From Erysipelotrichaceae bacterium (GTDB lineage Bacteria > Bacillota_I > Bacilli_A > Erysipelotrichales > Erysipelotrichaceae): a DNA stretch of 64,000 nucleotides. The first letter of the stretch is position 1; each line of letters begins with the position of its first letter. A model generated the notes under the pieces. The model did not search any database. It was given only the letters and a program-made list of their open reading frames with translations, and had not been told where the DNA came from. Positions 47,095 to 54,942 of this stretch are shown one piece after another. Made by a program: the position numbers and the translations under genes. The stretch spans positions 1 through 64,000 of the forward strand of contig JAAZCQ010000016.1 of NCBI GenBank assembly GCA_012513225.1, in the 5' to 3' direction.

Positions 47095-49107
47095 ATGTAT
47101 CAAGGATGGGAAGGATTTGTAACAGGTAACTGGAACAAAGAAGTAGATGTTAGAGACTTTATTCAAAAAAATTATACTGAGTATTTAGGTGATGATTCAT
47201 TTTTAGAGGGAGCTACCGAAGCAACAACTAAATTATGGGATCAAGTTTCAGAATTAAATAAAAAAGAAATAGAAGCAGGTGGAGTACTTGAAGCAGAAAC
47301 AAAAATAGTAAGTACACTTACTTCATATGGCCCTGGGTATTTAAATAAGGACTTAGAAAAAATTGTGGGATTTCAAACTGACAAACCATTTAAGAGGAGC
47401 TTACAACCTTTTGGTGGAATTAGAATGAGTGAAACTGCTTTAGAATCATATGGTTTTAAAATTGATTCTGAAGTAAAAGAGATATTTACTAAGTATAGAA
47501 AAACTCATAATCAAGGTGTATTTGATGCATATACACCAGAAATGAGAACTGCTAGATCTTGTGCTATTATTACTGGTTTACCAGATGCTTATGGAAGAGG
47601 AAGGATAGTTGGAGATTATAGAAGAGTAGCTCTTTATGGAACTGATTTTTTAATTGAAGAGAAACAAAATTTATTAAATACAATTCTTTTAGGATCAATG
47701 ACTGAAGAAAGAATTAGAGATAGAGAAGAAGTTTCAGAGCAAATTAGAGCTTTAAAAGATTTAGCAAAGATGGCTGAAATGCATGGTAAAGATATATCAA
47801 AACCTGCATATACAGCTCAAGAAGCAGTACAAGCTGTATATTTTGGTTATTTAGCTGCGGTTAAGGAACAAAATGGTGCTGCAATGTCTTTAGGTAGAAC
47901 TAGTACTTTCTTAGATATATACATGGAAAGAGATTTAAAAGCAGGTAGAATTACTGAAAAAGAGTGTCAAGAACTGATGGACCAATTTGTAATGAAGTTG
48001 CGTCTAATTAAGTTTATGAGAACTCCTGAATATAATGACTTATTCTCAGGAGATCCAACTTGGGTAACTGAATCTATTGGTGGTATGGGATCTGATGGTA
48101 GATCTTTAGTAAGTAAGAACTCTTATAGAGTTCTACATACACTTGTAAATCTTGGTCCAGCACCTGAACCTAATTTAACAGTATTATGGTCAACAAAATT
48201 ACCTAGTAACTTTAAAAAATTCTGCGCTAAAATTTCTATTGAAACAAGTTCAATACAATATGAAAATGATGATTTAATGAGAATTGATATGGGAGATGAT
48301 TATTGCATTGCTTGTTGTGTTTCTAGTATGAGAGTAGGCAAGGATATGCAATTCTTTGGTGCTAGAGCAAACCTAGCAAAATGTCTATTATATGCAATTA
48401 ATGGTGGAATGGATGAAAAGAAAAAAATACAAGTTTCGCCAAGATATGAACCGATTACTTCTGAATATTTAGATTACGATGAAGTAATGGAAAAATTTGA
48501 TCAAATGATGGAATGGCTTGCTGGATTATATGTAAACACTTTAAATGTAATACATTATATGCATGATAAATATTCTTATGAAGCATTAGAAATGGCATTA
48601 CATGATCATAATGTAAGAAGATTCTTTGCTACAGGTATTGCAGGTCTTTCAGTAGTAGCTGATTCACTTTCTGCTATTAAATATGCTAAAGTAAGAACTA
48701 TAAGGGATGAAGATGGTGTTGTGGTTGACTATGAGGTTGAAGGGGATTATCCTATGTATGGTAACAATGATGATCGTGTTGATTTAATTGCTGCTGATTT
48801 AGTAAAAAACTTCATGAATAAAATCAAAGAACATCGTACTTACAGACATGGAATACCTACTATGAGTATTCTAACAATTACTTCAAATGTAGTTTATGGT
48901 AAAAAGACTGGTAATACTCCTGATGGAAGAAAAGCTGGTGAGCCACTTGCTCCAGGAGCAAATCCAATGCATGGAAGAGATACACATGGTGCAGTAGCTT
49001 CATTAGAGTCTGTTGCAAAAATACCATATGAATATTCTAGAGATGGAATATCAAATACATTCTCAATTATTCCTGATGCTTTAGGAAAAGACGATATTGA
49101 TAAATAA
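47095..49107 (+). CDS. pflB: Pyruvate formate-lyase large chain lacking the glycyl-radical domain
   Basis: 670 aa. Converts pyruvate and CoA to acetyl-CoA and formate. The thiyl pair C407-C408 is in [11 protein letters not shown]. The chain is normal through [17 protein letters not shown] and then stops. The canonical enzyme continues for about 80 residues to the radical glycine. Those residues are in the next gene, 14 bases on, so the chain cannot work alone. AGGAAGG upstream gives strong translation. Confidence 0.93.
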
Positions 49108-49121
49108 GGAGGGTTAATATT

Positions 49122-49355
49122 ATGTCTGATAAAATAGATAACTTAGTAACACTAATTGACGGATATGCTGAAAGTGGAGGACATCATTTAAACGTAAATG
49201 TATTTAATCGTGAAACTTTATTAGATGCACAAAAACACCCAGAAAAATATCCTCAGTTAACAATTAGAGTTTCTGGATATGCTGTAAACTTTAATAAACT
49301 TACAAAAGAACAACAAGACGATGTTATTGCAAGAACTATGCATGAAAGTATGTAA
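49122..49355 (+). CDS. grcA: Separate glycyl-radical subunit of pyruvate formate-lyase (GrcA-like)
   Basis: 77 aa. [20 protein letters not shown] and the radical loop [10 protein letters not shown] (Gly52), ending [16 protein letters not shown]: exactly the last part of a standard PFL. In Escherichia coli a similar small protein, YfiD/GrcA, rescues oxygen-cleaved PFL; here it supplies the only radical domain. It has its own AAGGAGGG and ATG, so the division is a stable gene boundary, not a recent frameshift. Confidence 0.92.
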
Positions 49356-50742: not shown

Positions 50743-52110
50743 ATGGAATTTAGTGAATTAAGAAAAATGTATCCTACATTTATTTATCATGGATATGATA
50801 TAGAAGAAAATGAAGAAAGTATTAAAATAATATATAATTTTGAAATAAGTGGGCTTAGCAGTTTTAATCCTGTATGGAATATAAAAAAGAAAGATAATAA
50901 AATATATTCAGAACTAAAAATATTTAAGGAATCAGTTTTTTCTTTAGGTATGGTTGAACTAATTAGTTATTGGAAAATCACTTGTAGCCCAACAGTAATT
51001 ATAAAGCCATCAAAATTAGATAAATATCAAATAAATTGGTGGAAAAAACAATATTTTTATGGATTAGGAGAATTTTTTTATATAAATAATATCAAAACTA
51101 ATATAATTGATTTTATGAATATTGAATCATCTAACATTAATATTGAAGGGAATATTGATAATCAAGAATATATAGGAAATCTAATACCAGTAGGAGGAGG
51201 AAAGGATTCTTTTGTTACATTAGAAATTTTAAAGGATTTATATAATGTTAATGATACATATGTAATAAATAATGTTATTTCTGCGATTAATGCCTCTACT
51301 GCTGCTGGTTATGAAAATAAGTTAATTAATGTTTCAAGAACTTTAGATAAAAGAATGCTTGAATTAAATAAACAAGGTTTTTTAAATGGACACACTCCTT
51401 TTAGTGCATTAGTTGCTTTTTCTAGCATTTTGGTATCAATTATTTATGGAAAAAAATATATATGTTTATCTAATGAAGCTAGTGCTAATGAATCTACAAT
51501 ATTAGATGAGGAGGTTAACCATCAATATTCAAAATCATTTGAATTTGAAGTTGATTTTAATGAATATATTAATAAGTATATTACAAATGAAATTAAATAT
51601 TTTTCTTTACTTAGACCATTAAGTGAATTAATAATAACTCATATTTTTTCAAAACTTAAAAAATATCATCCTATATTTAGAAGTTGTAATGTTGGAAGTA
51701 AACAAGGAATTTGGTGTAATCACTGTGCTAAATGTTTATTTGTATATACTATGCTTTCTGCATATATGTATGATGATGAATTAGTTGCAATATTTGGGGC
51801 TAATATATTAGATGATGAAACAATGTATCCAACTCTTCTTGAATTAAGCGGTCTAAAAGACAATAAACCATTTGAATGTGTAGGTACAAGAGAAGAAGTT
51901 AGGGTTGCAATAACTAAGGCAATTAAACTTAGGAATGGATTAAAACTTCCTTTGTTATATGATAAATATTTAAAAGAAAATAACAAAGTGTTTATTGATT
52001 ATGATATATATGAATATTTTAATGATGAAAATCTATTACCTATAGAATATTTAGAAATATTAAAAAACAAGATTGGAGAATATAAAGATGTTAGAAAATT
52101 TAGTAGATGA
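50743..52110 (+). CDS. murL: UDP-MurNAc-L-Ala-L-Glu epimerase MurL
   Basis: 455 aa. I assign MurL from the PP-loop-like motif PVGGGKDSFVTLEIL (GGGKDS at 151-156). The segment SLGMVELISYWK, the cysteine site WCNHCAKCLF (C325, C328, C331) and direct coupling to a MurD2-like ligase support it. MurL, known from Xanthomonas, epimerises the L-Glu in UDP-MurNAc-L-Ala-L-Glu to D-Glu using ATP. It replaces the glutamate racemase route. Its last 23 bases overlap murD. Confidence 0.82.
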   Translation: MEFSELRKMYPTFIYHGYDIEENEESIKIIYNFEISGLSSFNPVWNIKKKDNKIYSELKIFKESVFSLGMVELISYWKITCSPTVIIKPSKLDKYQINWWKKQYFYGLGEFFYINNIKTNIIDFMNIESSNINIEGNIDNQEYIGNLIPVGGGKDSFVTLEILKDLYNVNDTYVINNVISAINASTAAGYENKLINVSRTLDKRMLELNKQGFLNGHTPFSALVAFSSILVSIIYGKKYICLSNEASANESTILDEEVNHQYSKSFEFEVDFNEYINKYITNEIKYFSLLRPLSELIITHIFSKLKKYHPIFRSCNVGSKQGIWCNHCAKCLFVYTMLSAYMYDDELVAIFGANILDDETMYPTLLELSGLKDNKPFECVGTREEVRVAITKAIKLRNGLKLPLLYDKYLKENNKVFIDYDIYEYFNDENLLPIEYLEILKNKIGEYKDVRKFSR

Positions 52111-53371
52111 ATTTAAAGATAAGAAAGTATTAATATGGGGATTGGGATTAGAAGGTAATTCAACATATACTTTTATTAAAAATATACTTCCAGATCAGCA
52201 ATTATTTATTTGTGATAGAAATAAACCTGATCAATCTATGTTTAAAAATGATATTGTAATTGATGAAAAAGATTTGGATACTAGTGAGTATGATATTGTA
52301 ATGAAGGCTCCAGGAATTAAAGTGAAAAAAAATACTGGAAACATTAGTGGTCAAGCTCCGTTGTTTTTAAAATATTTTAAAGATAATGTCATTGGTGTAA
52401 CTGGTACAAAAGGTAAAAGTACTACTGCATCACTTATATATCATGTTTTGCAAGGAAAATTTTCTAATATTTATTTAGTAGGTAATATAGGAGTACCTTG
52501 TTTTGATATTCTAAAATTTATGACTTTAGATAGTATTGTTGTATTTGAAATTTCTTGTCATCAACTTGAATTTTCAACATCTTCTCCATATATAGGTGTA
52601 CTTTTAAATTTATTTGAAGAACATTTAGATTTTTATGATAGTTATGAGCTTTATAAAAATGCAAAAAAACAAATTTATCTTAATCAAACAAATAATCAAA
52701 TGGCTATTATAAACTATGACATTATTAATGAAGTAGAAGATCCTGAAAGGTTTATGTGGATAAATAAAGATATATATGCTGATGGAAAAACACTTGTTAC
52801 ACCTTATGATAGTGTTACGATTAATGAAACAAGGTTAATAGGAAGTCATAATATGAGTAATTTAGCAGTTGTATACTATATAACTCATGTTTTATATGGA
52901 ATAACTAATGATATGTTTTTAGAAAGAGTTAAAACATTTAAGCCTTTACAACATAGACTTAGTTTTGTAGGAACATTTAACACTATTACATATGTAAATG
53001 ATTCAATATCAACAATTGGTCAATCTACTATTCAAGCAATAAAAAGTTTAGACAATGTTTCAACTGTATTAATTGGTGGATATGAAAGAAATATAGATTA
53101 TAGTGAATTAATTAGTTTTTTAAAAAATGTGGAAATTGATAATATTATTTTAATGTATAAAACGGGTAAAAGAATTTTAGGTAGTTTAGATGAAACAAAG
53201 GCAAAAGTATATTATGTTGATGATTTAAAAGAAGCAGTTAAGCTAGCTAAAACAATTACTAAAAGAAATAAAATATGTTTATTATCTCCTGCTGCAGCAA
53301 GTTTTGGACATTTTAAAAACTTTGAAGAAAGAGGTAATATATTTAGTGATTTAGTAAGGTTAGATTATTAA
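52088..53371 (+). CDS. murD2: MurD2-type ligase: adds L-glutamate to UDP-MurNAc-L-Ala
   Basis: 427 aa. Mur ligase with P-loop GVTGTKGKSTT (G106-S111), GSHNMSNLA, LQHRLSFVG and LLSPAAASFGHFKNFEERG. Ordinary MurD has NDSKATN, whose Lys contacts D-Glu; here it reads NDSISTIGQ (Ile307 in place of Lys). That change and the adjacent murL point to the L-Glu-using MurD2. The start is ATG 52088 behind GGAG; the frame reaches 52073 but that codon precedes the ribosome site. Stop overlaps recJ by one base. Confidence 0.85.
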   Translation: MLENLVDEFKDKKVLIWGLGLEGNSTYTFIKNILPDQQLFICDRNKPDQSMFKNDIVIDEKDLDTSEYDIVMKAPGIKVKKNTGNISGQAPLFLKYFKDNVIGVTGTKGKSTTASLIYHVLQGKFSNIYLVGNIGVPCFDILKFMTLDSIVVFEISCHQLEFSTSSPYIGVLLNLFEEHLDFYDSYELYKNAKKQIYLNQTNNQMAIINYDIINEVEDPERFMWINKDIYADGKTLVTPYDSVTINETRLIGSHNMSNLAVVYYITHVLYGITNDMFLERVKTFKPLQHRLSFVGTFNTITYVNDSISTIGQSTIQAIKSLDNVSTVLIGGYERNIDYSELISFLKNVEIDNIILMYKTGKRILGSLDETKAKVYYVDDLKEAVKLAKTITKRNKICLLSPAAASFGHFKNFEERGNIFSDLVRLDY

Positions 53372-54942
53372 TGAAATATAAATATATTAAGTTAGATAAT
53401 TTAGATAACGGATTAAATAATCTTATAAATAGTGTAATAAATTATAATGAATTAACAATAGGTCAAATTAATGACATTTTAAAAAGTGATTTACATTTAT
53501 CTTTTTGTAATGATAAATGTGTTATAGATGCAGTAGATAGGATAAGTCAAGCAAAAGCAAATAAAGAAAAGATTTTTATTGCAGGAGATTATGATGCTGA
53601 TGGTATTTGTGCTACTACAATTATTAAAGATTCTTTGGATAAATATGGGGTGGAATCAGGTTATTATATTCCTAATAGATTCACAGAAGGTTATGGATTA
53701 AATAGTGAAAGAGTAAATCAAGCATATCAAAAAGGGTATTCTTTGATTATTACCGTAGATAATGGTGTCAAAGCTAATGATGCAATAAATAAAGCAAAGA
53801 GTCTAGGGATGGATGTTATAGTTAGTGATCATCATCAAATTGAAGAAAATGTAAATGCGGATATACTTGTGCATCCAGATTATATGGATGATAGGTTTGA
53901 AGGTTTGTGTGGTGCAGGTGTAGCATTACAAATTTCAAGAAAATTGATAGGAAATGATGAATTTCATACTACTTTAGCTTGTATAGCAACTATAGGAGAT
54001 ATGATGAGTCTTTTTAAGGAAAATAGAACTATAGTTAAACATGGACTTAAAATATTAAATACACATAAATATACAATATTTGATGTATTGATAGATTCAA
54101 ATAATAAAGTTATTACTTCTAGTGACATTGCATTTAAGCTTGTTCCAAAGCTAAATGCAATGGGAAGACTTCAAGAATTAGGAAATCCAAATGATATAAT
54201 TCGCTATTATTTTTTAAGTAATGATATTAAAGAAAAAATAATAATGAAGGATAATATTATAAATATTAATAAACAAAGACAATATTTAAGTAAAAAAATG
54301 TATGAAAAAGCTATTACTCTAATGGAAAATGAACCTTTCATTATTATTGAAAGTGAAGATTTTCATGAAGGAATAGTTGGACTTGTTGCTGGTAAATTAT
54401 CAAATACATTTAATAAACCAACAATAGTTTTTAATAATAACAATGGAATTTTAAAAGGCAGTGGAAGAAGCATAAAGGGATTTGATTTATATGGTTTTTT
54501 AAGTGAAGGCTTTAATGAGCTAATAAATTTTGGTGGACACAGTCAGGCTGTAGGATTATCTTTAGATTATAATGACTATTTAAAATTTAAAAATAAGGTA
54601 CTTAAAAAATATAAAGATATTTCTGTAAAAGATATTAAAGATATTGCTTATTTAATTAGTGAAAATAGTTTATTTATAGATGATGTTTTAGAATTAGATT
54701 ATTTAGAGCCTTATGGACAAGGTTTGAAAATGCCTGAATTTGCAATTACTGATTTAAAAGTTAAAGATTTTAATATATTAAAGAATAAATATCCTAAATA
54801 TAAATTTAATAATTTTGAAGCTATTTCTTTTAATGAAAATATTGTAGCTATTGAAAATCCAAAATTAATTATTGGAAGTATTTCTATAAATGATTTTAGA
54901 GGTAAACAAGTAATATCTATGAATATTAAAGATATAGAATAA
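53371..54942 (+). CDS. recJ: Single-strand exonuclease RecJ, short form
   Basis: 523 aa, somewhat shorter than usual. DHH-family motifs: IAGDYDADGICATTI, TVDNGVKA, VSDHHQIEE; DHHA1 motif GSGRSIKGFDLYGFL and FGGHSQAVGLSL. A 5'-3' exonuclease on single-stranded DNA in recombination and repair. It starts in the TAATG overlap with the Mur ligase, an unusual partner. Confidence 0.88.
   Translation: MKYKYIKLDNLDNGLNNLINSVINYNELTIGQINDILKSDLHLSFCNDKCVIDAVDRISQAKANKEKIFIAGDYDADGICATTIIKDSLDKYGVESGYYIPNRFTEGYGLNSERVNQAYQKGYSLIITVDNGVKANDAINKAKSLGMDVIVSDHHQIEENVNADILVHPDYMDDRFEGLCGAGVALQISRKLIGNDEFHTTLACIATIGDMMSLFKENRTIVKHGLKILNTHKYTIFDVLIDSNNKVITSSDIAFKLVPKLNAMGRLQELGNPNDIIRYYFLSNDIKEKIIMKDNIININKQRQYLSKKMYEKAITLMENEPFIIIESEDFHEGIVGLVAGKLSNTFNKPTIVFNNNNGILKGSGRSIKGFDLYGFLSEGFNELINFGGHSQAVGLSLDYNDYLKFKNKVLKKYKDISVKDIKDIAYLISENSLFIDDVLELDYLEPYGQGLKMPEFAITDLKVKDFNILKNKYPKYKFNNFEAISFNENIVAIENPKLIIGSISINDFRGKQVISMNIKDIE

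Follow-up and report, generated by a model that had tools for sequence, protein, structure and literature searches.

D-Glutamate occupies the second position of the stem peptide in nearly all peptidoglycans, and glutamate racemase MurI counts as a standard drug target. The window analysed here (64,000 nucleotides of an Erysipelotrichaceae bacterium, GC content 27.6%) raises the question of how this residue is made where the gene of a Mur ligase is preceded by, and overlaps with, a gene resembling murL of Xanthomonas. The sequence-only reading of this locus had suggested that both products follow the Xanthomonas route, that the pair is coupled to recJ in a low-GC Gram-positive bacterium and that no glutamate racemase is needed. 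The data presented below make it very probable that the pair does produce peptidoglycan D-Glu on the nucleotide precursor by a rare two-enzyme route of the Xanthomonas type.

The overlap between the two genes, already noticed from the sequence, covers 23 nt if murD2 is counted from the ATG at 52088. This is the likely start, with GGAG situated about 10 bases upstream; the TTG at position 52073, given by mechanical listing of open reading frames, is less likely. Coupling to recJ was confirmed as a one-base overlap of the murD2 stop with the recJ start (TAATG), and apt, relA/spoT and hisS follow downstream. On the same strand upstream of the pair there are a PBP2X/FtsI-type gene, mraY, secDF and a gene for a HAD phosphatase, with pfl genes and a reverse-strand Fe-ADH gene lying farther away. 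The pyruvate formate-lyase encoded there is split: positions 47095-49107 correspond to a 670-aa core that lacks the glycyl-radical part, and RVSGYAV is found in a separate 77-aa frame at positions 49122-49355, which has a ribosome-binding site of its own. Two other genomes (G018, locus L021; G012, locus L024) show this split too.

Table 1. Genes and sequence features of the murL-murD2-recJ region (positions in the window)
Feature	Positions	Strand	Basis
murL (MurL-like ORF, 455 aa)	50743..52110	+	NF041275, E 3e-72; BLASTP with X. sacchari MurL, 33% over 326 aa, E 9e-57
PP-loop motif GGGKDS, MurL residues 151-156	51193..51210	+	GGGK[D/N]S in 33/33 Bacilli MurL; GGGKDS in X. sacchari MurL
QueC-like four-Cys site C-x9-CxxCxxC (C315, C325, C328, C331; C315...WC325NHC328AKC331)	51685..51735	+	four Cys invariant; spacing type as in E. 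coli QueC CYNGFKGDGCGHCAAC
murD2 (MurD-like ligase, 427 aa)	52088..53371	+	TIGR01087; MurD2 residues; tree with Xanthomonas MurD2, 100/99
Glu178, E. coli D182 position; Glu in MurD2 (X. oryzae E197)	52619..52621	+	alignment; PMC8788868
NDSIST motif; Ile307, E. coli K319 position	52997..53014	+	alignment; same YVNDSIST in X. sacchari MurD2
Arg334, E. coli K348 position; Arg in MurD2 (X. oryzae R358)	53087..53089	+	alignment; PMC8788868
recJ, co-directional next gene	53371..54942	+	TIGR00644, 376.7 bits, just below cut-off of 396.9; synteny in relatives

The ligase matches the MurD model TIGR01087 with E 3e-84, above its cut-off, and in the alignment with E. coli MurD it retains catalytic residues K115, E157, H183, K198, R302, D317 and T321 (E. 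coli numbering). Its NDSIST motif had been interpreted as lacking the lysine that contacts D-Glu. The motif is there and the lysine (K319) is lost, but the contact had been assigned to the wrong residue: in E. coli MurD K319 is located near ADP and controls specificity, while the lysine placed near D-Glu is K348 (PMC8788868), which is Arg here. Beyond NDSIST the D182 position is altered as well, and all three changes (D182→E, K319→I and K348→R) match MurD2. In the X. oryzae enzyme E197 and R358 determine specificity for L-Glu, conversion of both to MurD residues switches it to D-Glu, and substitution K319T makes E. coli MurD accept L-Glu (PMC8788868). Arg348 alone is not diagnostic of MurD2, since MurD of S. 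mutans has Arg at this position yet uses D-Glu (PMC8788868). This example favours the main alternative, namely an ordinary MurD of a divergent Firmicute type that adds D-Glu, with the MurL-like protein serving some other function; D-Glu would then be supplied by the environment or by a racemase that escaped detection. However, positions 319 and 182 are changed too, and the clade containing the window ligase takes in MurD2 of Xanthomonas. Among 32 typed MurDs linked to MurL, Arg348 was found in all, residue 319 is Ile in 30 and Leu in 2, and Glu182 is present in 28, whereas all eight canonical MurDs (seven from relatives and that of E. coli) have D/K/K. In the tree, X. sacchari MurD2, though on a long branch (2.23), and MurD2s of Bacilli are set apart from canonical MurDs with support of 100/99. 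The motifs YVNDSIST, PEH, GGHDR and GTKGKST are common to X. sacchari MurD2 and the window ligase, and the overlap with murL is similar. Assignment of the ligase to the MurD2 type, presumably preferring L-Glu, rather than to canonical MurDs is thus supported by its residues and tree position.

MurL matches the NF041275 model with 243.6 bits, which is below the cut-off of 700 bits set for this Xanthomonadales-only family. Both motifs read earlier from its sequence, GGGKDS and WCNHCAKC, are present; the PP-loop and the four cysteines are shared with X. sacchari MurL, and the cysteine site was found in 33 of 33 Bacilli MurL proteins examined. As had been supposed, the window pair agrees with murL-murD2 of Xanthomonas in sequence homology, in the specificity residues, in the overlapping order of the genes and in the position in the tree. 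Comparison of the AlphaFold2 model of MurL (pLDDT 91.8) with PDB by Foldseek gave QatC (9y02, E 2e-4, 425 columns) and QueC (2pg3, E 8e-4; 3bl5, E 5e-3). TM-scores were modest, 0.42–0.44 to QatC and 0.62–0.67 to QueC with normalisation by QueC, so the relation is one of fold core. The segment CYNGFKGDGCGHCAAC of E. coli QueC corresponds to CNVGSKQGIWCNHCAKC in MurL, and hhalign aligns them with E 4e-4 for a single comparison and a probability of 35%. The PADLOC model of QatC had no match with MurL at E <= 1. Based on the Foldseek matches and on the alignment of the cysteine site with QueC, MurL is predicted to be a member of the PP-loop superfamily near QueC, with a QueC-type four-Cys site. 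So far it has been described as having no known domains, and an adenylate formed with release of AMP has been proposed (PMC8788868, PMC5808125). A PP-loop site as modelled fits this reported AMP-forming chemistry; no link of MurL with QueC or the PP-loop was found in the literature searched.

Both reactions and AMP formation are known from other species (PMC8788868, PMC5808125), and the similarity of the window proteins to the Xanthomonas enzymes suggests that they catalyse the same two steps. L-Glu would be attached first and then inverted in place, with neither free D-Glu nor MurI being required. MurL may activate the alpha-carboxylate of the newly added L-Glu as an adenylate in the PP-loop (QueC-like) site, and this adenylate would make the alpha-proton of L-Glu acidic. 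Judging from the modelled fold, the adenylate step proposed by the discoverers of MurL is plausible for this protein as well.

Other sources of D-Glu were then considered in the genome. In its own assembly (1.55 Mb in 59 contigs) neither TIGR00067 nor PF01177 registered MurI or another such racemase; the assembly is 80.5% complete, so murI could be missing from it. Two genomes of the same genus, 97–98% complete, both have MurL–MurD2, and MurI was not found in them either. The suggested search for canonical murD together with murI did not reveal this combination in any of the three genomes. The pair supplies the single MurD of the assembly. No D-amino-acid transaminase was found among its PF01063 matches; the lone protein of this family was rejected as a candidate, being branched-chain IlvE (389 bits, over the cut-off). 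DapF, a Chlamydia-type racemase (PMC5885031), was dismissed as a source of D-Glu, as it was not found in the own assembly or in the MurL-less genomes described below. The absence of a PF01177 racemase, D-amino-acid transaminase and DapF from the assembly argues against an ordinary MurD fed with free D-Glu.

A more general picture was obtained from 148 genomes of the order. MurL was detected in 27 of them, belonging to 8 genera, and strong MurI (a match over 90 bits) in 0 of these 27 versus 111 of the 121 MurL-negative genomes (Fisher p 1.2e-21, a value overstating independence, as the genomes are related). MurL and strong MurI are mutually exclusive across this set, which again disagrees with an ordinary MurD. 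Weak TIGR00067 matches in three MurL-positive genomes (G096, G134 and G143; 22–40 bits) were discounted, being regarded as Asp/Glu racemases of another kind. Directly downstream of murL a MurD2-type murD was found in all 26 loci fetched from relatives within the order, as well as in the window. In a sample of 395 genomes of the class a second Bacilli family (f12) also has the pair, accounting for 5 of 16 matches, and no PF01177 racemase was found in its five MurL genomes. Named members are metagenome-assembled genomes of "Erysipelotrichaceae bacterium" and a "Bacilli bacterium" from rumen. G142 (L050, L051) has canonical murD and murI, though its genus, g8, is otherwise of the MurD2 type in the sample. 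Two genomes of the same family (G041 and G062, 98-99% complete) gave no match to MurD, MurI or MurL and are possibly wall-less or otherwise unusual. In G359 (L067, 2918-3754) a dinD-like gene is located between murL and the murD2 start.

Four genomes of genus g8 (G014, G045, G085 and G140; loci L046, L047, L048 and L049) retain the operon with murL absent from its place, and MurL was not found elsewhere in them even at E 10; G014 is complete in one 1.545-Mb contig, and G085 is also in one contig. Their MurDs keep the E/I/R signature. Since those of G014/G045 and of G085/G140 branch at two distinct points within the MurL-positive clade, murL was most probably lost twice, and retention of MurD2 in its absence means that MurD2 does not strictly need MurL. 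Like the S. mutans enzyme, this observation favours an ordinary MurD. These genomes have no strong MurI (a weak match in G140 only), no D-amino-acid transaminase and no DapF. G085 (C1:244010-245665) and G140 (L074) each have a gene for a PF01177 racemase next to murE; G014 and G045 have none. That of G140, the one weak TIGR00067 match that was examined, is of the TIGR00035 aspartate-racemase type and neighbours an ATP-grasp ligase-like gene; the murE-adjacent racemases of both genomes perhaps serve a D-Asp cross-bridge. PLP racemases (PF01168, 363–393 aa) are inconsistent as a replacement of MurL: their contexts differ between the two lineages (an arginine/ornithine-type and a yhf-type cluster, named by eye), and one is also present in MurL-positive G018. 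An undiscovered epimerase of the wall dipeptide, or another D-Glu route not yet described, may operate in the four genomes but is less likely than not. With the evidence on both sides considered, an ordinary D-Glu-adding MurD is an unlikely explanation for the window.

MurL relatives were also searched for outside the class. None was found in the viral contigs searched, and two Pseudonocardia plasmids (L098, 3764-5164; L099, 3962-5356) carry solitary MurL-like proteins with GGGRDS beside a WD40 gene and without adjoining MurD2. These proteins imply that the fold may have other roles, so that both window enzymes might work much as named on another substrate, for instance a secondary cell-wall polymer, instead of the main peptidoglycan, but the location of the pair downstream of the ftsI-type PBP gene, mraY and secDF and its possession of the sole MurD of the assembly make this very improbable.

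The murL-murD2 pair as a source of wall D-Glu would mean that a Bacillota family is split between users of MurI and users of MurL–MurD2. Part of the family would then not respond to inhibitors of MurI and could be attacked with inhibitors of MurD2 or MurL. The QueC-like PP-loop assignment supplies a testable mechanism for a protein described as having no known domains, and genomes with MurD2 and no MurL hint at a further unknown step.

With QueC and QatC, MurL has in common the predicted fold core (Foldseek E 2e-4 to 8e-4), the PP-loop and the C-x8/9-CxxCxxC site; identity is low (11-17%), and the N-terminal part and the substrate of MurL differ. From the canonical system of MurD plus MurI the window ligase preserves the Mur ligase fold and catalytic residues, but K319, K348 and D182 are changed and no MurI was found in the genome. 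The closest counterpart is MurD2-MurL of Xanthomonas oryzae (XOO_1320/XOO_1319; PMC8788868, PMC5808125), with the same overlapping murL-murD2 order, E/I/R residues, GTKGKST, GGGKDS and the four-Cys motif, and likewise no MurI found; residues and gene order for this comparison were taken from X. sacchari (a replicon in the plasmid collection). Published lists of MurL/MurD2 comprise Gammaproteobacteria, Alphaproteobacteria and Actinobacteria; a fungus, cyanobacteria and an amoeba are given there with orthologues of low similarity. No report from Bacillota was found in the literature searched, which left out most subscription journals, so an earlier one is possible. The pathway itself is already published, and the locus probably represents its taxonomic extension to Bacillota. 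In contrast to Xanthomonas, the hosts belong to Erysipelotrichaceae and a second Bacilli family, outside the published lists, the genes precede recJ-apt-relA, and identity to the Xanthomonas proteins is 27-33%.
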